NCBI GenBank assembly: GCA_902526645.1
Contig: CABZLS010000002.1
Coordinates: forward strand, 1 to 64,000
DNA length: 64,000 nt
Direction: 5' to 3'
Source of the DNA: an uncultured Pelagibacteraceae bacterium
GTDB taxonomy: Bacteria; Pseudomonadota; Alphaproteobacteria; Pelagibacterales; Pelagibacteraceae
The position numbers were made by a program, and so were the translations under genes. Numbering within the stretch: position 1 is the stretch's first letter; each line of letters begins with the position of its first letter. Positions 33,454 through 42,428 of the stretch are shown here, one piece after another. The notes beneath the pieces are model-generated. The model was not told where the DNA came from. It ran no database searches and saw nothing but the letters and a program-made list of their open reading frames with translations.

Positions 33454-33843
33454 ATGAATAAAATTATAGTTGAAGTTTCAATTGGAGAACTTTTAGATAA
33501 AATTTCAATTTTAGAGATTAAGCAGGGTAAAATAAAAGATCCGGAAAAATTAAAATTTATTAATAATGAACATTCAATCTTAAGAAATCAGTTGGAAAAA
33601 AATATCAAGTCTGATGAGAGACTTAATGAACTTTACAAATCTTTAAAAAGGATAAATTCTAAATTATGGGTAATTGAAGATGATAAAAGACAATGTGAAA
33701 AAGATAAAGATTTTGGTGAAAAATTTATAAAACTTTCAAGAGATGTACATTTTTTAAATGATGATAGAGCGAAAATAAAATTAGATATTAATAATCATAC
33801 AGGTTCAACGATCAAAGAAATAAAAGAATATACTAGCTATTAA
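33454..33843 (+). CDS. DUF6165-like hypothetical protein
   Basis: 129-aa soluble, highly charged helical protein. The opening VEVSIGELLDKISILEIKQGKI matches what I recall of DUF6165 proteins, which tend to sit beside lipopolysaccharide glycosyltransferases, as here. No catalytic motif, signal peptide or membrane helix is visible. The first half is probably a helical hairpin; the end (NNHTGSTIKEIKEYTSY) is polar. It starts 32 bases from the GT9 start and precedes the M24-fold gene by eight bases. Confidence 0.65.
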   Translation: MNKIIVEVSIGELLDKISILEIKQGKIKDPEKLKFINNEHSILRNQLEKNIKSDERLNELYKSLKRINSKLWVIEDDKRQCEKDKDFGEKFIKLSRDVHFLNDDRAKIKLDINNHTGSTIKEIKEYTSY

Positions 33844-33851
33844 TTTAATCG

Positions 33852-35003
33852 ATGGCACTTCATTTTTCAAAAGAGGAATTTTCTAATAGAAAAAATAAAG
33901 TTTTAAATTCTATGAAAGAGCAAAATCTAGATGCTCTATTAATGTTTAGACAGGAGTCTATGTATTGGCTTACAGGTTATGACACTTTTGGATATGTTTT
34001 TTTTCAATCATTAATTTTAGATAAAAATGGAAATATAATATTGCTTACAAGAGCTCCTGATTTAAGACAGGCACAAAATACATCTAATATAGAAGATATA
34101 AGAATTTGGGTAGACAAAGATGGATCAAAACCAATTAACGATCTTATAATTATTTTAGACGAATTAAACCTTAAAGGAAAAAAAATAGGCGTTGAGTATG
34201 AAGCTTATGGCTTAACAGGACGTAATGCACTTCTATTGAACAAATCTTTAGAAAATTATTGTAGTTTAGAGGACAAATCAGAGTTAATAACAAAGTTAAG
34301 GGTAGTAAAATCTAAAGAAGAAATTGTTTATGTTAAGAAAGCTGCAGAGCTAGCTGACAAAGCCTTGGCTGAAGTATGGAAATATGCAAAAGCTGGTGTT
34401 AGCGAGTCAAAAATATTGGCTGAAATGAATAGAGTTATATTTGAAGGTGGTGGTGATTATCCTGCAAATGAATTTATTATTGGCTCAGGAAAGAACGCTC
34501 TTCTTTGTCGTTATCAAGCAGAAAAACAAATTTTAAATAATCAAGATCAATTAACTTTAGAATGGGCTGGGACTTACAGACATTATCATTCAGCAATGTT
34601 TAGAACTATTCCTATAGGTAAAGCAGATCCTAAACATCATAAAATGCATGAGGCTTGTGTTGAAGCATTAAAGAATTGTGAAAATAAATTAATTCCAGGA
34701 AATAAGATTGGAGAAGTTTTCGATGCCCATGCAAAAACTTTTGATGATCTTGGTTTTAATAAAGCAAGAATGAATGCCTGTGGTTATTCTTTAGGCACAA
34801 CTTTTTCTCCAAATTGGATGGACTGGCCAATGTTATATACTGGCAATCCTTATGCTATTGAGCCTGGGAATGTATTCTTTATGCATATGATTTTAATGGA
34901 TTCTGAAAATCAATTAGCTATGAACTTGGGCGAAACTTACTTAGTAACTGATAATAGCAATGAAAGACTTGGTAAACAAAAATTAGATTTAGTTATTCTT
35001 TAA
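33852..35003 (+). CDS. M24 (creatinase/EutD-type) hydrolase without metal ligands
   Basis: 383-aa pita-bread-fold protein with an N-terminal creatinase domain (about 1-145) and a C-terminal M24 domain. The canonical metal ligands are lost: the first Asp becomes Glu237 (LTLEWAG), the second becomes Ala248 (HYHSAMFRT), the GHGIG His region is ACGYSLG, the EPG Glu position reads FFMHMIL, and the last Glu shifts in NLGETYLVT. Metal-free members of this fold include creatinase and the ectoine hydrolase EutD/DoeA, which act on C-N bonds. A dipeptidase is therefore unlikely. Substrate unknown; an amino-acid uptake system lies convergently next to it. Confidence 0.8.
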   Translation: MALHFSKEEFSNRKNKVLNSMKEQNLDALLMFRQESMYWLTGYDTFGYVFFQSLILDKNGNIILLTRAPDLRQAQNTSNIEDIRIWVDKDGSKPINDLIIILDELNLKGKKIGVEYEAYGLTGRNALLLNKSLENYCSLEDKSELITKLRVVKSKEEIVYVKKAAELADKALAEVWKYAKAGVSESKILAEMNRVIFEGGGDYPANEFIIGSGKNALLCRYQAEKQILNNQDQLTLEWAGTYRHYHSAMFRTIPIGKADPKHHKMHEACVEALKNCENKLIPGNKIGEVFDAHAKTFDDLGFNKARMNACGYSLGTTFSPNWMDWPMLYTGNPYAIEPGNVFFMHMILMDSENQLAMNLGETYLVTDNSNERLGKQKLDLVIL

Positions 35004-35674
35004 TTAAAGCTGTATTTTTTTTCTAAAAATTTTATCACATTATGAATTATAAAAGTCATAAATAAGTAAATTCCACCTGCAACGATAAATACTTCTATTG
35101 GTTTAAAAGTTGTTGAAATTATATATTTTGCAACACCAGTTAAATCCATCAAAGTGACTGTACTTGCTAACGAAGTACCTTTCATCATTAAAATAATTTC
35201 ATTTCCATAAGCTGGTAAAGATTGTCTAATAGCGATTGGAATTTGAATTTTATAAAAGATAATTTTGTTTGATATACCTAAACTTTTTCCAGCCTCAATT
35301 ATACCAGGTTTAATTGTTTGAAAAGCTGATCTTAAAATTTCAGATGTATATGCACCAGTGTTTAATGCAAAAGCTATAATTGCACACCAATATGGTTCTT
35401 TTAAAATTACCCATAAAACTGTTGATCTCAAATATTCAATCTGACCTAATCCAAAATAAATTATAAAAATTTGAACCAAAAGTGGAGTGCCTCTAAATAC
35501 ATACGAATATCCATAAGCAAATCTATTGATAAATATATTTTTATTTAATCTTAGAATTGCAAAAAATAAGCCAATGAATAATCCCACAATCAAAGAAACT
35601 GACAAAAGCTTTAAAGTTATAAGAGCAGCATTTAATAACTTTGGAAAACTATTGATCATTAGCTCAAAATCCAT
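35000..35674 (-). CDS. Polar amino-acid ABC transporter permease (HisM type)
   Basis: Inner-membrane permease (224 aa from the ATG at 35674; the ORF track begins at a TTG one codon earlier). Five or so membrane segments and the EAA-type coupling loop AGKSLGISNKIIFYKIQIPIAIRQSLP are as in HisM/ArtM. Its ATG overlaps the stop of the upstream permease by one base. It is the last gene of the set, and its end overlaps the convergent M24 gene by four bases. No ATPase gene is next to it. Confidence 0.92.
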   Translation of the reverse strand: MDFELMINSFPKLLNAALITLKLLSVSLIVGLFIGLFFAILRLNKNIFINRFAYGYSYVFRGTPLLVQIFIIYFGLGQIEYLRSTVLWVILKEPYWCAIIAFALNTGAYTSEILRSAFQTIKPGIIEAGKSLGISNKIIFYKIQIPIAIRQSLPAYGNEIILMMKGTSLASTVTLMDLTGVAKYIISTTFKPIEVFIVAGGIYLFMTFIIHNVIKFLEKKYSFN

Positions 35675-36366
35675 CAATACCCCCTGCTATATTTAACTTC
35701 TAATTTATTGATCAGTTTCATACTTAAAAAAGTCAGCAATAAATATAAAACTGCCGCAAATGAATAAAAGAATAATGGATCTCTTGTAGAACCTGCTGCA
35801 ATATAAGATTGTCTCATAATTTCAACTAAACCCGTAACTGAAATTAAAGATGTATCTTTAAGAGTAATTTGCCAAACATTACTTAGATTAGGAATTGCAA
35901 GTCTTAACATTTGAGGAAGGATAATCTTGTAAAACTGTTTAAATTTACTAAAGCCTAAAACTTTTGCTGCTTCGAATTGTCCTTTATCAATTGATTGAAT
36001 TGCTCCTCTAAAAACTTCTGTAGAATAAGCACCTGAAATAATTCCAATAGCAAATGAACCTGTAACAAATGCATTTATTTCTATGTACTCATTGTAACCA
36101 AACATAGAAGCTACAAACATAATTGCACCGCTTCCACCAAAAAAGAAAAGATAAATTACTAATAATTCAGGTACACCTCTGATGACTGTAGTATAAATAT
36201 TTGCAATTAAATTTAGTGATTTAAATTTAGATAATTTTAATGGAGTAAAAATTGCAGCGAAACTAAAACCTATTAGCATTGCTGTAATTGATACAGCTAT
36301 TGTCATTAGGGTTGCACGAAATAACTCATCACCCCAACCAGTATCTCCAAATGCTAGAAGTTCCAT
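35674..36366 (-). CDS. Polar amino-acid ABC transporter permease (HisQ type)
   Basis: Second inner-membrane permease (230 aa). The coupling loop is AAKVLGFSKFKQFYKIILPQMLRLAIPN, followed by WQITLKDTSLISVTGLVEIMR, a typical HisQ/ArtQ region. VIRGVPELLVIYLFFFGG is the other strongly conserved segment. Together with the HisM-type partner it should form the heterodimeric channel of a basic or polar amino-acid importer. It lies 45 bases downstream of the binding-protein gene on the same strand. Confidence 0.93.
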   Translation of the reverse strand: MELLAFGDTGWGDELFRATLMTIAVSITAMLIGFSFAAIFTPLKLSKFKSLNLIANIYTTVIRGVPELLVIYLFFFGGSGAIMFVASMFGYNEYIEINAFVTGSFAIGIISGAYSTEVFRGAIQSIDKGQFEAAKVLGFSKFKQFYKIILPQMLRLAIPNLSNVWQITLKDTSLISVTGLVEIMRQSYIAAGSTRDPLFFYSFAAVLYLLLTFLSMKLINKLEVKYSRGY

Positions 36367-36411
36367 ACAGACTGGCGACTATACATGATAGTCGCCAAAT
36401 CTTAAATTGAA

Positions 36412-37242
36412 TTACATAGAAGCGTCGAAACCGAACCACTTAGTAGCTATTCTACTAATATCTCCGTTCTTTCTCGCTTTGTTAATTGCAGCGTTAAACT
36501 TTTTCAAAAGCTCAGTATCATCTTTTCTAATACCAACACCTACACCATTGCCAAATGCACCACCTGAAAAAGTTGGTCCAGTTAATACAACTGGCTTACC
36601 AGATTTTTCTGCATAATCACTAAATGCTACTGCAGCAGCTAATGCAGCATCACATCTTCCTGATGCTAAATCTAGGTTAACTTCATCTTGAGTTTTATAA
36701 GTTCTTACGTTTACTTTTCCAACATCTCCCGAGTCTAAGAAGTTTTGGTGAATTGTAGCAGTTTGAACACAAACAGTTTTACCTGCTAATGCTGCTGTAA
36801 GAGTTTTTAATGCTTTTTTTGCAGCTGCGTTAGGTTTAGTAAGATTTATTCCAGCCGGAGTATCTAAACCTTCAAGACTAGAGCCTTTCATAACTGCTAA
36901 TGAAGCAACTTCATCTGCATAACCTTGAGAAAAACTAATCGCTTTTTGTCTCTCAGCTGTAATTGACATCCCAGCCATTATTGCATCAAATTTTCTCATA
37001 ATTAGAGCGGGAATCATTCCATCCCAATCTTGTTCAACTATAGTACATTGTTGCCCTATATATCTGCAAAGTGTCCAAGCTAGTTCAACTTCAAATCCAA
37101 TTAACTTTCCTGACTCATCTTTTGAGTTCCATGGTGGATAAGCACCCTCTGTTCCAATTCTTATCTTGTCGGCATTAACATTTCCTATAACTAATAAGGA
37201 AAGTAAAACTGAAAAGATTATTTTTTTAAATATATTCATCAT
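36412..37242 (-). CDS. Periplasmic amino-acid-binding protein (HisJ/ArgT-like)
   Basis: Family 3 solute-binding protein (276 aa) with signal MMNIFKKIIFSVLLSLLVIGNVNA. IRIGTEGAYPPWNSKDESGKLIGFEVELA is the lobe 1 start, and MIPALIMRKFDAIMAGMSIT contains the ligand-binding segment. A Cys pair around CRYIGQQC resembles the disulfide of lysine/arginine/ornithine-binding proteins, so a cationic amino acid or opine-like ligand is likely. An AAAGGAGA ribosome site precedes tandem ATGs. It heads the operon with both permeases; no ATPase follows. Confidence 0.92.
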   Translation of the reverse strand: MMNIFKKIIFSVLLSLLVIGNVNADKIRIGTEGAYPPWNSKDESGKLIGFEVELAWTLCRYIGQQCTIVEQDWDGMIPALIMRKFDAIMAGMSITAERQKAISFSQGYADEVASLAVMKGSSLEGLDTPAGINLTKPNAAAKKALKTLTAALAGKTVCVQTATIHQNFLDSGDVGKVNVRTYKTQDEVNLDLASGRCDAALAAAVAFSDYAEKSGKPVVLTGPTFSGGAFGNGVGVGIRKDDTELLKKFNAAINKARKNGDISRIATKWFGFDASM

Positions 37243-37298: not shown

Positions 37299-38339
37299 TT
37301 AATGATTAATCGATGATGAAAAATTCCAAGAACAATCAAAGCTAGGCACATAAACCCTAGATAATTTAGTATTGCCAAAATGATGATAAAAAACATTAAG
37401 CCAATTTTCAACTTGATGGGGTTTTTTATCTTGACTGCCTACTTGTGCCGTTATCACCCCTTTTGGTTTAAGAATTCGAACTAATGAGTCCATATTTTTT
37501 GCTGCAAGATCTATGCAAAATTGATCATCATTTAAATCAACAAATATATGATCATATGTATCATCTTTAATAGATTTTATACTTTCAAAAGCATCTCCCC
37601 AAACACATTTAACAGAATTTTTTTCTGTAGCTTTCTTTCCAATATCACCTAAATGTTTATTACAAACATCTACTACTTCTGGGTCAAGTTCAAACCAATC
37701 TATAAAATTAAAATTTTTTGAAATGCATTCTCTAGCAACACCACCATCTCCACCACCAATAATAGCCGCTCTCTCATTTTTTTTATTCAATTTCAGCCCT
37801 GCTCCAACAAAAGTTGAGCTATATAAATGTTCATCTGAAGCTGCCACTTGTATTTCGCCATCTATAAATAAAGATTTTCCAAATTGCTCTAATTCTAAAA
37901 TTTCAATGTGTTGACCAACTTTTGATTTAAAATCTTCAAGCACTTCATTTACAACGTAGGATTTTTGTAAACCAGGTGAACTATAAATATCGTGATAAAG
38001 AGATTTGGTATCTCTATTAAATTCTTTTTTAACTATACGCTTGTATTCAAATTCTTTTTTGACAATATCAATTGCTACTGATGGACTTATTTTTCCACAG
38101 GTAAAAAAATCAAAACTAATTATTCCATTTTCTGGAAATGTATGAAAACTGATATGACTTTCAGCCAGTAAGGCTAAAATAGTAAATCCTTGAGGTTCAA
38201 ATTTATATTTTGAAATATTTAAAATAGTTACATTAGCTGCTTTAGCTATTTTATGTATTATTCTTTCATAAACTGAAGGGTCGTACTCTTTTGTAGTACC
38301 TATAATATCTAAAGTAATATGCTCTCCAACTTTAATCAT
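37299..38339 (-). CDS. SpeD-SpeE fusion: S-adenosylmethionine decarboxylase / aminopropyltransferase
   Basis: 346-aa bifunctional polyamine protein. Residues 1-120 are a class 1B AdoMet decarboxylase: ESHISFHTFPE carries the self-cleaving Ser61 that becomes the pyruvoyl group, with His66 and Cys81 (FTCG). Residues about 125-346 are a spermidine-synthase domain with IIGGGDGGVARE and FVDLND. The usual YHE near the amine site reads HLYSST, so amine specificity may differ. It produces MTA, and the genes that would consume it (aldolase, mtnA, mtnP) lie directly upstream on the same strand, one base away. Confidence 0.92.
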   Translation of the reverse strand: MIKVGEHITLDIIGTTKEYDPSVYERIIHKIAKAANVTILNISKYKFEPQGFTILALLAESHISFHTFPENGIISFDFFTCGKISPSVAIDIVKKEFEYKRIVKKEFNRDTKSLYHDIYSSPGLQKSYVVNEVLEDFKSKVGQHIEILELEQFGKSLFIDGEIQVAASDEHLYSSTFVGAGLKLNKKNERAAIIGGGDGGVARECISKNFNFIDWFELDPEVVDVCNKHLGDIGKKATEKNSVKCVWGDAFESIKSIKDDTYDHIFVDLNDDQFCIDLAAKNMDSLVRILKPKGVITAQVGSQDKKPHQVENWLNVFYHHFGNTKLSRVYVPSFDCSWNFSSSINH

Positions 38340-38340
38340 C

Positions 38341-38994
38341 TTACCCTTTTTTATAACTCTTAGCCTTATCTAAAACTTTTTTCATTTCTTCAAATGAAAG
38401 AATCTTAGGTTGTCCTAACTTTAGAGCAATAGTGTATTGATGACAAATATTTTCTATCTCTTGTGCAAGTTCAAATGCATCCTCTAAATTTTTACCAAAA
38501 GCAACCTGGCCGTGATTAGACATTAAACATGCAGATCTATTTTCTAAAGCTTTGATAACATTATTAGATAACTCTTCGGTTCCAAAAGTAGCGTATTCAG
38601 CACATTTAATGTCATCTCCTCCTGCTAGAGCTATCATATAATGAAATGGTGGAATAGGTTTTCCATGTGAAGATACAGCTGTTGCGTGTGGAGAATGAGC
38701 ATGAACAATGGCATATGCCTCTTTTTTATTTGTATAAATATCTCGATGAAATCTCCATTCAGATGAAGGTTTGTTTACTTTATTGTTTTTTTCATCCTCG
38801 TTTAAACCCAAAAAAACAATATCCTCAGGTTTTAGTGTTTCATATTTTTTTCCTGATGGAGTAATTAAGTATCCCTCTATATCATCTTCTCTTCCTCTCA
38901 ATGATATATTACCTGACCTAAGAGGTGAAAGATTAGTAGAATTTAATTTTAATGAGTACTCAATAATTTGATTTCTTTGATCTAAATTCTTCAT
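38341..38994 (-). CDS. Class II aldolase, FucA-type; likely methylthioribulose-1-phosphate aldolase
   Basis: 217-aa zinc aldolase/epimerase-family protein. Glu79 (PSSEWRFH), His98 and His100 (VHAHSPHAT) and His161 (SNHGQVAFG) are each offset by exactly +6 from E. coli FucA Glu73, His92, His94 and His155. FHYMIALAGGDDIKCAEYATFGTEEL is FucA-like. Beside MtnA and MtnP this points to cleavage of 5-methylthioribulose 1-phosphate to DHAP and methylthioacetaldehyde (Ald2, the DHAP shunt). An MtnB dehydratase is the alternative. The start overlaps the mtnA stop by four bases. Confidence 0.85.
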   Translation of the reverse strand: MKNLDQRNQIIEYSLKLNSTNLSPLRSGNISLRGREDDIEGYLITPSGKKYETLKPEDIVFLGLNEDEKNNKVNKPSSEWRFHRDIYTNKKEAYAIVHAHSPHATAVSSHGKPIPPFHYMIALAGGDDIKCAEYATFGTEELSNNVIKALENRSACLMSNHGQVAFGKNLEDAFELAQEIENICHQYTIALKLGQPKILSFEEMKKVLDKAKSYKKG

Positions 38995-40061
38995 TTGAAT
39001 AATTCTTTTAGTCCTTTTTCTGATGCTTCACATACACCTTTTTCGGTAATTAATCCTGTAACATATTTTGCTGGGGTCACATCAAAAGCTAAATTCATAG
39101 CTTTGCTCTTTTTTGGATAAATTTGAATTTTTTTTATATCTCCTTTTTTATCTAAACCTTCAACATGAGATAATTCCTCTGAATTTCTCTCTTCAATCGG
39201 AATATCTTTATGATCTTTTATATTCCAATCAATTGTTGAACTTGGTAGTGCAACGTAAAAAGGAATCTTATTATCATGAGCAGCCAATGCTTTAAGATAA
39301 GTTCCAACTTTATTGCAAACATCTCCATTGGCTAAAGTTCTGTCTGTTCCAACTATACACATGTCGACTTCACCTCTTTGCATTAATATACCACCTGTAT
39401 TATCTGCAATGATTGTGTTTTTAATTCCCTCTTCATTTAATTCATAGGATGTAAGATTTGCTCCTTGATTTCTTGGTCTAGTTTCGTCTGCCCACACATG
39501 GACGGGAATTCCTTTTTTGTGTGCATGATAAATTGGAGAAGTTGCGGTCCCCCAATTTATTGTTGCAAGCCAACCTGCGTTACAATGAGTTAATATATTA
39601 ACTGTATCCTTTTTTTTATTATAGATTTCTTCAATAATTTTTAGTCCATTTAAACCTATACTTTCACAAAATTTCACATCCTCTTCACATATATCTTTTA
39701 CTTCATTCAAGGCTATTTCTAAGATTTTATCGCTATTAACACCTGATAATTTATTCATCATTCTATCAACAGCCCACTTTAAATTAATTGCCGTTGGTCT
39801 TGAACTAATTAAATCTTCTGCAGATTTCTTTAAAAATGATTGGTCCTTATTTTCAATTATAGCTAAAACCATTCCATAAGCTGCTGTAGCTCCTATTAAA
39901 GGTGCACCTCTTACTTCCATTGATTTAATAGCATTTATTGTATCCTTAACTGTTTTTAGGTCTTTAATAATAAATTGATGTGGAAGTTTTGTTTGATCAA
40001 TAATTTTTACAACATTATTTTCAAACCAAATAGTACGATATTCTTTTCCCTCAATTTTCAT
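38991..40061 (-). CDS. mtnA: Methylthioribose-1-phosphate isomerase
   Basis: Converts methylthioribose 1-phosphate to methylthioribulose 1-phosphate. It has 356 aa of the eIF2B-like isomerase fold. The catalytic Cys lies in THCNAGWLAT, the catalytic Asp in VGTDRTLANGDVCNKVGTY, and MEVRGAPLIGATAAYG is a family marker. Four-base overlaps with both the upstream hydrolase and downstream aldolase genes make this a tightly coupled operon. Other ribose-phosphate isomerases of the fold are less likely given mtnP nearby. Confidence 0.94.
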   Translation of the reverse strand: MKIEGKEYRTIWFENNVVKIIDQTKLPHQFIIKDLKTVKDTINAIKSMEVRGAPLIGATAAYGMVLAIIENKDQSFLKKSAEDLISSRPTAINLKWAVDRMMNKLSGVNSDKILEIALNEVKDICEEDVKFCESIGLNGLKIIEEIYNKKKDTVNILTHCNAGWLATINWGTATSPIYHAHKKGIPVHVWADETRPRNQGANLTSYELNEEGIKNTIIADNTGGILMQRGEVDMCIVGTDRTLANGDVCNKVGTYLKALAAHDNKIPFYVALPSSTIDWNIKDHKDIPIEERNSEELSHVEGLDKKGDIKKIQIYPKKSKAMNLAFDVTPAKYVTGLITEKGVCEASEKGLKELFK

Positions 40062-40990
40062 TTTAATCTTGAAGCAATAAAATTAAGAATTTCTGGATTA
40101 TAGTATTGAAAACAAAGTCCTTGGTTCATTTCGTGTCCTGGATTTTTCCGAGCTGAAACATTTTCTTCCCAATCATCTCCTTTTACAACACAAGATTTCC
40201 CGTTAATTTTGAAATCTTCAGAAATAACAATTCTTTTAACTCCTGGAACTTCTTCTAACCATTCAGATAACAATCCCTCATATTTATCCTTAGGGTGAGT
40301 AAAAGCTAAAACAGGAACATTATCAGATTGTTTAATATTATTAATTTGTCTTACTCGTAATTCAGCAGGGCCTGGATATTTTCTAGCAAATTTTTTTAAA
40401 GCCTTTTCAGGGCCTACTTTTTTTACCTTATAACTTGAGGAAAGCTTACCAAAACAAGCTTGCATATATGATATGCCCCCACCTACTTTTTCGGGGTAAG
40501 CTGATAACAACATTAAAGTTAATAGACCCCCGCATGAATGACCTGATATAATAATTTGTTTTCTTGGAACTCCTATACTTATAAATTTTTCAACTAATTC
40601 TAAATTTTTTTCAACTCTTTTATCTAATTTGTGTTTACCTACATAAGGAGTTTTAGACTTCCACCAATGTTTTTTTAACGACATATCACCCGCAAAATCA
40701 TTTGTGCAGAAATTATAAACCATAATTTTTTTACCATTTATTTCCTTATCAACTAATGAAGCTTGATTTCTTATTTGATTAACCCAAATACATTCACTCT
40801 TATGAGCTTTATCATTTGAATTTTGACCATGATTGTAAATAATTACAATTTTATTTTTGGGGTCATCAATATTAATGCCTTCTTTTACTGAGGCTGATTT
40901 GGTTATAAAACCACTTTTTAAAATTTTTCCATTTGCGTAAGCTGTATTTGAAACTATTAAAAATATTAGAATTAATAATAATTTTTTCAT
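40058..40990 (-). CDS. Secreted alpha/beta hydrolase, unknown substrate
   Basis: 310 aa with signal MKKLLLILIFLIVSNTAYA. IISGHSCGGLLTLMLLSAYP contains the nucleophile elbow G-H-S-C-G of a serine alpha/beta hydrolase, and VLAFTHPKDKYEG and NPGHEMNQG hold candidates for the acid and His. It is therefore a periplasmic or exported esterase-like enzyme. It lies between mtnP and mtnA with four-base overlaps at both ends, although MTA salvage is cytosolic, so the link is unexplained. I do not recognise a specific family. Confidence 0.75.
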   Translation of the reverse strand: MKKLLLILIFLIVSNTAYANGKILKSGFITKSASVKEGINIDDPKNKIVIIYNHGQNSNDKAHKSECIWVNQIRNQASLVDKEINGKKIMVYNFCTNDFAGDMSLKKHWWKSKTPYVGKHKLDKRVEKNLELVEKFISIGVPRKQIIISGHSCGGLLTLMLLSAYPEKVGGGISYMQACFGKLSSSYKVKKVGPEKALKKFARKYPGPAELRVRQINNIKQSDNVPVLAFTHPKDKYEGLLSEWLEEVPGVKRIVISEDFKINGKSCVVKGDDWEENVSARKNPGHEMNQGLCFQYYNPEILNFIASRLK

Positions 40991-41859
40991 TTTTTTAATA
41001 CCCTTCCTGCTACTGTATTTAATTTTTCTATAGTTTTTTTCGTTCTTTTTTCAGGTGCTGTAATAATTGCAACATCTAAACAATTATTAGTTGGATCATT
41101 AGGATCAATATGATTTTCAAAGTTTTCTATTAAATTTTTAATCATATTTTTTGCCTTAGCAGCATTACCTAATAAAACTTTTACAACTTGTTGAACATCA
41201 ACGTTTTCATGATCAGGATGCCAACAATCATAGTCAGTGACCATTGATACAGATGCATACCTTATCTCTGCCTCTCTTGCTAATTTCGCCTCTGGCATGT
41301 TAGTCATTCCAATTACATCTGCTTTCCAAGATCTGTATAAATTTGACTCTGCTAATGTTGAAAATTGTGGTCCTTCCATAACAACGTATGTTCCATTTCT
41401 TTGATAATCAATTTTTTCTTTTTTTATTGCTTCTTCACATGCATCCATTAACCCCTTTGAGGTGGGATGTGCCATTGAAACATGTGCTACAATTTCATCA
41501 TCAAAAAAAGTTTTTACTCGTGAAAAAGTTCTATCAATAAACTGATCAACTATCACAAATTTTCCAGGAGGTAGATCTTCTTTTAATGAACCTACAGCAG
41601 AAACTGAAACGATATCCGTAACTCCTAATTGTTTTAAAGAATCGATGTTTGCTCTAAAATTTATATTTGAAGGTGAAATAAAATGTCCTCGGCCATGTCT
41701 TGGCAAAAAATAAACTTCTTTATCATTATAATTTGTTTTTAGAATTTGGTCCGATGGCTTACCCCAAGGTGTATTTAGATCTAATAACTCACGATTTTCA
41801 AATTCCTCTACATCATAAAGTCCACTACCTCCTATGATTGCTAATTTATTTATTGTCAT
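40987..41859 (-). CDS. mtnP: S-methyl-5'-thioadenosine phosphorylase
   Basis: Phosphorolyses MTA to adenine and methylthioribose 1-phosphate. It has 290 aa. AIIGGSGLYDVEEF, FLPRHGRGHFISP (phosphate site), VSAVGSLKED, EGPQFSTLAES and TNMPEAKLAREAEI are family motifs, and SMVTDYDCWHP carries the purine-binding Asp pair. It is the first gene of the minus-strand operon mtnP-hydrolase-mtnA-aldolase-speDE. The divergent apt gene 41 bases away can reclaim the adenine produced. Confidence 0.95.
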   Translation of the reverse strand: MTINKLAIIGGSGLYDVEEFENRELLDLNTPWGKPSDQILKTNYNDKEVYFLPRHGRGHFISPSNINFRANIDSLKQLGVTDIVSVSAVGSLKEDLPPGKFVIVDQFIDRTFSRVKTFFDDEIVAHVSMAHPTSKGLMDACEEAIKKEKIDYQRNGTYVVMEGPQFSTLAESNLYRSWKADVIGMTNMPEAKLAREAEIRYASVSMVTDYDCWHPDHENVDVQQVVKVLLGNAAKAKNMIKNLIENFENHIDPNDPTNNCLDVAIITAPEKRTKKTIEKLNTVAGRVLKK

Positions 41860-41900
41860 GTTTTAAAATTAATCTATTTATAGATTTATAAAAAACAATT

Positions 41901-42428
41901 ATGAATTTAAAAAACTTTATTAGATCAATTCCTGATTATCCAAAAAAAGGCATATTATTTAGAGATATAACAACACTTATAAAAGATGAAAAGGCTTTTG
42001 CAGAAACAATTAATCAAATAGTTGAAAAATCGAAGAAATATAAATTTGATAAAATTGCTGCTATTGAGTCTAGGGGTTTTGTTTTTGCCTCTGCGGTTTC
42101 ATACATTTTAAAAAAGCCATTTATAATGTTAAGAAAAAAAGACAAACTACCTGCAGATGTCCACTCAATAGATTTTGAGCTAGAATACGGAACTGCGACT
42201 ATTGAGGTACACAAGGATTCTATAAAAGAAAATGAGTCAGTTCTAATAATAGACGATTTAATTGCCACAGGCGGTACAGCAGAGGCTGCAGCAAAACTTA
42301 TTGAAATTTCTAAAGGCAAGGTTTCAGCTTTTATATTTGTAATTAATTTGTTTGATTTAGGTGGTGCAGAATTGCTTACAAAAAAAAATTATAAAATTGA
42401 AAATTTAATTAATTTTCCAGGTCATTAG
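41901..42428 (+). CDS. apt: Adenine phosphoribosyltransferase
   Basis: Salvages adenine to AMP using PRPP. It has 175 aa. IRSIPDYPKKGILFRDITTLI is the standard Apt N-terminus, AAIESRGFVFA the purine-side segment and VLIIDDLIATGGTAEAA the PRPP-binding loop. It is divergent from mtnP, which releases adenine, so the two probably share regulation in the AT-rich 41-base spacer. Its end lies seven bases from the convergent GT17 gene. Cytosolic; no anomalies. Confidence 0.95.
   Translation: MNLKNFIRSIPDYPKKGILFRDITTLIKDEKAFAETINQIVEKSKKYKFDKIAAIESRGFVFASAVSYILKKPFIMLRKKDKLPADVHSIDFELEYGTATIEVHKDSIKENESVLIIDDLIATGGTAEAAAKLIEISKGKVSAFIFVINLFDLGGAELLTKKNYKIENLINFPGH

Follow-up and report, generated by a model that had tools for sequence, protein, structure and literature searches.

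Proteins of the M24 family share a pita-bread fold, and in the metallopeptidases among them, such as Xaa-Pro dipeptidase and aminopeptidase P (1WY2, 1WN1), a dinuclear metal site is bound by a D-D-H-E-E ligand set. The DMSP lyase DddP also has the M24 fold, and two DddP-family sequences in our alignment keep D, D, H, E and E at the ligand columns. Creatinase (1CHM, 7YTO) has the pita-bread fold without a complete metal site. The ectoine hydrolase DoeA, or EutD (6TWJ, 6TWK, 6YO9; TIGR02993), is reportedly metal-free, and its ring opening is said to proceed via a covalent intermediate on Glu255. Here, we analyzed an M24 relative encoded in a stretch of 64,000 nucleotides (the window) from an uncultured Pelagibacteraceae bacterium (contig CABZLS010000002.1). 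Its uninterrupted, ATG-started open reading frame encodes 383 amino acids, which contain the Pfam domains Creatinase_N and Peptidase_M24, both far above the gathering threshold (117 bits for the M24 pita-bread fold). The features of the locus are as follows.

33852..35003, + strand: predicted DoeA-type M24 (pita-bread) hydrolase without metal ligands, 383 amino acids (domains, alignment, Foldseek)
34560..34562, + strand: Glu237 codon, first metal-ligand position (Asp in prolidase, Glu255 in DoeA); proposed nucleophile (alignment; role by analogy with DoeA)
34593..34595, + strand: Ala248 codon, second ligand position, where prolidase has Asp and DoeA has Pro266 (alignment)
34779..34787, + strand: C310-G311-Y312 codons in place of the GHG motif with the ligand His; Tyr312 corresponds to DoeA Tyr329 (alignment, conservation)
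34884..34886, + strand: His345 codon in place of the EPG ligand Glu; corresponds to DoeA His361 (alignment, conservation)
34929..34934, + strand: G360-E361 codons; the last ligand position is Gly, and E361 is not conserved in the subfamily (alignment, conservation)
33454..33843, + strand: DUF6165 gene directly upstream of the M24 gene (domain search), on the same strand in 28 of the 80 best SAR11 loci
35000..37242, - strand: PAAT-type ABC genes (permease, permease, basic-amino-acid-like substrate-binding protein), convergent, with a 4-bp overlap with the stop of the M24 gene

The original prediction held that this protein has lost all five metal ligands. In an alignment with prolidase 1WY2, creatinase 1CHM, DoeA 6TWK and DddP relatives, the prolidase ligands D212, D223, H287, E316 and E330 share their columns with E237, A248, Y312, H345 and G360 of our protein, with E255, P266, Y329, H361 and T376 of DoeA, and with N248, A259, H323, E357 and H375 of creatinase. 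Glu237, Ala248, the CGY motif and His345 are thus present as described, and the canonical dinuclear ligand set is absent, E-A-Y-H-G standing in place of D-D-H-E-E. Replacement extends to all five columns; however, the exchange of Asp for Glu at position 237 retains a carboxylate, so that this position is changed rather than lost. Judged from the aligned residues, the five-ligand replacement is not unique to this protein, but is the known signature of DoeA/EutD.

Conservation was assessed among the best 80 matches of a contig scan, all of which derive from SAR11, and among 71 other orthologs, while genome and plasmid searches gave the wider breadth. E237, Y245, Y312, D44, Q52, R67, D70, P320 and G360 are invariant in both sets (80/80 and 71/71), and H345 is kept in all 80 SAR11 matches and 69 of the 71 others. 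The last Glu, thought to have shifted by one position, is indeed found at E361; however, Glu occupies this position in only 15 of the 71 non-SAR11 orthologs, and this variability rules E361 out as a substitute ligand and speaks against any role in catalysis or metal binding within the subfamily. Purifying selection is strong across SAR11, with dN of 0.05 to 0.14 against dS of 0.75 to 1.7; a dN/dS below 0.1 and the lack of stop codons rule out a pseudogene.

The AlphaFold model of the protein (pLDDT 93.9, pTM 0.92) has its top Foldseek matches in the DoeA structures 6TWK, 6YO9 and 6TWJ (TM 0.92-0.95, rmsd 1.7-1.9), the best being 6TWK with a TM of 0.95 and an rmsd of 1.8; prolidases give a TM of 0.79-0.89 and creatinases of 0.86-0.88. 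The structure run covered the window and the genome loci, and active sites were compared by alignment and Foldseek score. DoeA is likewise the best sequence match in the PDB (114 bits; prolidase reaches 79 and creatinase 25), and ectoine_DoeA_2 (NF038259) is the top-scoring NCBIfam model. Both groups show the E/x/Y/H/x pattern at the ligand positions. Identity reaches 90% or more within DoeA as well as within the subfamily at 43 columns, among them E237/E255, Y245/Y263, H246/H264, Y312/Y329, P320/P337, W322/W339 and H345/H361 (subfamily/DoeA), as well as D44/D47, Q52/Q55, R67/R70 and D70/D73. The anticipated kinship to the metal-free DoeA/EutD enzymes is therefore borne out by fold and sequence, and also by phylogeny. 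In two maximum likelihood trees, built with a quick method and with SH-aLRT support only, the M24 subfamily forms a single clade (SH-aLRT 99-100), which together with its sister clade DoeA is separated from creatinase, DddP and the prolidases (SH-aLRT 92 and 87).

The protein is nevertheless a member of the sister clade and not DoeA itself. The subfamily was not placed inside the DoeA clade but beside it (SH-aLRT 100), whereas 11 of the 12 DoeA_2-like proteins that were fetched cluster with DoeA. Identity to DoeA is about 25%, no eut genes are found nearby, and the scores lie well below the cut-offs of the DoeA models (144 of 613 bits for TIGR02993, 169.5 of 575 bits for NF038259). Furthermore, 29 positions are fixed differently in the two groups, including A309 (R326 in DoeA), F51 (H54), E35 (S38), G47 (S50) and G360 (T376), and the reaction type itself could thus differ. 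The DddP model NF043017 did not match (28 of 600 bits), and the DddP clade is distant.

We consider it probable that the protein is a metal-independent C-N hydrolase of the DoeA/EutD type, which belongs to an uncharacterized alphaproteobacterial sister subfamily, uses Glu237 as nucleophile and acts on a small metabolite. By analogy with DoeA Glu255, Glu237 would attack an sp2 carbon bound to nitrogen, while His246, His345 and Tyr312 could provide acid/base and oxyanion functions, and the conserved residues Arg67, Asp70 and Arg220 might anchor the substrate. Since the subfamily shares the catalytic residues of DoeA and is its sister group, it probably cleaves a small molecule at a C-N bond, most likely that of an amidine, a cyclic imine or an amide. 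The substrate is predicted to be a small, carboxylate-bearing cytoplasmic metabolite, and the enzyme may serve the repair of metabolites or cell wall precursors. The original prediction had proposed the opening of a C-N bond in an osmolyte or a guanidino compound; the C-N chemistry appears likely, whereas the links to osmolytes and to creatine found no support.

Of 37 genus-level SAR11 genomes, 17 encode close orthologs with at least 79% identity, and 79 of 385 class-level genomes contain a match with an E-value below 1e-40, mostly with 43-63% identity outside SAR11. Orthologs were also found in Rhizobium and Sinorhizobium records of a plasmid collection, and more distant relatives (33-35% identity) in two actinobacterial plasmids. 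Of 59 loci outside SAR11, 30, from 19 families, have pgeF upstream of the M24 gene, on the same strand and no more than 2.5 kb away, in the order lgt-midA-pgeF-[M24]-(lipoprotein)-prs-rplY-pth-ychF and with gaps in the alignment that are mostly below 30 bp; in Sinorhizobium and Rhizobium, 1-5 bp separate the annotated genes. The cluster lgt-midA-pgeF-[M24]-prs is probably the ancestral setting of the M24 gene, which makes a housekeeping or repair metabolite a likelier substrate than an imported osmolyte. Among the best 80 SAR11 loci, 40 have the gene after M23 and 2-oxopentenoate-hydratase-like genes, and in 27 it lies next to DUF6165/GT9 with the convergent PAAT genes directly adjacent.

Relatives with 33-43% identity occur in catabolic clusters of Rhodococcus and Paenarthrobacter plasmids (L084, L085) and of Terrarubrum (L083), in the company of genes for creatininase-family proteins, RidA and PLP enzymes, or for hydantoinase, 5-oxoprolinase and allophanate hydrolase; these neighborhoods hint at C-N chemistry on cyclic compounds. 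One alphaproteobacterial family (loci L140 and L141 of genomes G174 and G367; also G277 and G443) has 33-39 M24 candidates per genome, some of which are DoeA-type genes arrayed in tandem, three at a time, close to an Asp/Glu-racemase-like and an acyl-CoA-dehydrogenase-like gene.

A more specific form of the C-N hydrolase reading would be a hydrolase that proofreads metabolites or edits cell wall precursors and is functionally coupled to PgeF. PgeF/YfiH is a cytoplasmic editing amidase that cleaves UDP-MurNAc-L-Ser (PMC8844914), and its gene directly precedes the M24 gene in the loci described above. However, the cluster also contains lgt, midA, prs, rplY, pth and ychF, and the linkage to pgeF may thus reflect housekeeping clustering only; moreover, the M24 gene is unlinked from pgeF in SAR11 and in around half of the other loci. 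This coupling is possible, though rather unlikely. It is unlikely, too, that the subfamily is an unrecognized metal-free M24 family with a housekeeping role in editing or repair in Alphaproteobacteria, encoded together with PgeF, which would use its Glu nucleophile to remove a damaged or mis-made cell wall or nucleotide-linked metabolite and whose SAR11 copies lie elsewhere in the genome.

The shared fold and catalytic residues could also be read as those of a divergent DoeA, i.e., an ectoine or hydroxyectoine hydrolase served by the local uptake system; the adjoining PAAT-type transporter belongs to the same broad ABC class as the ehu transporters. The low model scores and the fixed differences argue against this, and a separate DoeA-family protein coexists with the M24 gene in around 15 genomes; the window's own genome encodes a nearer relative of DoeA (L031 7250-8416, 454 bits). 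No EutE deacetylase, linked or encoded elsewhere in the genome, was found in 41 SAR11-order genomes, several of which are incomplete; together with the failed DoeA cut-offs, this speaks against the osmolyte link. The neighboring substrate-binding protein prefers models of Lys/Arg/Orn binding proteins (231 bits) over EhuB (67 bits), and its adjacency to the M24 gene is not conserved. A role in ectoine hydrolysis is therefore very unlikely. The DoeA-like paralog of the window's genome (454 bits to TIGR02993, cut-off 613) lies on contig C1 of G000 (L031 6501-8419, G000:C1:134246), behind an EutA-like gene and ahead of a polyamine-type Pot ABC operon.

The uptake system, an opine-type transporter according to the original prediction, had also been taken as a clue to function. 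Its genes are convergent, overlap the M24 gene at the 3' end and are directly adjacent in only 27 of the 80 best SAR11 loci, with other contexts elsewhere, and we therefore rejected the transporter as a functional partner. The M24 gene occupies varied positions in SAR11, and the transporter is thus local to some SAR11 lineages; it was not noted among the non-SAR11 neighborhoods that were read, and no ATP-binding gene adjoins the PAAT genes in the window. We judge the transporter to be an incidental neighbor. Further downstream, positions 37299-42428 of the window encode a fused AdoMet decarboxylase/spermidine synthase, a class II aldolase and apparent MtnA, MtnP and adenine phosphoribosyltransferase proteins, a set that resembles a methylthioadenosine salvage pathway next to polyamine synthesis.

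Equally, we regard it as highly improbable that the protein is a creatinase-like amidinohydrolase, whose substrate, creatine or some other guanidino compound, would be supplied by an opine- or arginine-type transporter. The fold is common to both (TM 0.86), and in one SAR11 genome (L032) around 2.4 kb separate the ortholog from genes for a creatinase and an amidinotransferase-like protein. However, creatinase keeps the ligand His and Glu (H323, E357), where our protein has Tyr312 and His345, and has N248 opposite Glu237; it matches with 25 bits only and forms a distant clade that does not group with the subfamily in either tree. In SAR11, the true creatinase is a separate gene, whose product scores 535 bits against 1CHM. 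In view of ligands, score and phylogeny, we rejected the suggested kinship with creatinase, and the substrate is apparently neither ectoine nor creatine. In the SAR11 loci L032 7592-10969 (G012) and L036 1058-3392 (G003), the creatinase gene lies beside an amidinotransferase-like gene, with a DMT permease upstream and, in G012, a threonine-aldolase-like gene downstream, and these loci are likely creatine/guanidinoacetate clusters.

A prolidase-like metalloenzyme with a site rebuilt from E237/H246/H345 or D44/D70 is hardly plausible. Conservation of these residues is complete or almost complete, and E237, H246 and H345 might in principle coordinate a metal in an unusual manner, but the same set is found in DoeA, which has substrate- and product-bound structures and is reportedly metal-free, and the subfamily lies outside the prolidases.

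Taken together, the ligand loss is real but follows the pattern already known from DoeA, and the protein falls into an uncharacterized sister group of the ectoine hydrolases in Alphaproteobacteria. Databases list these M24 proteins under 'Xaa-Pro peptidase family protein', a name at odds with their active site, and the linkage to pgeF is the best lead to their substrate.
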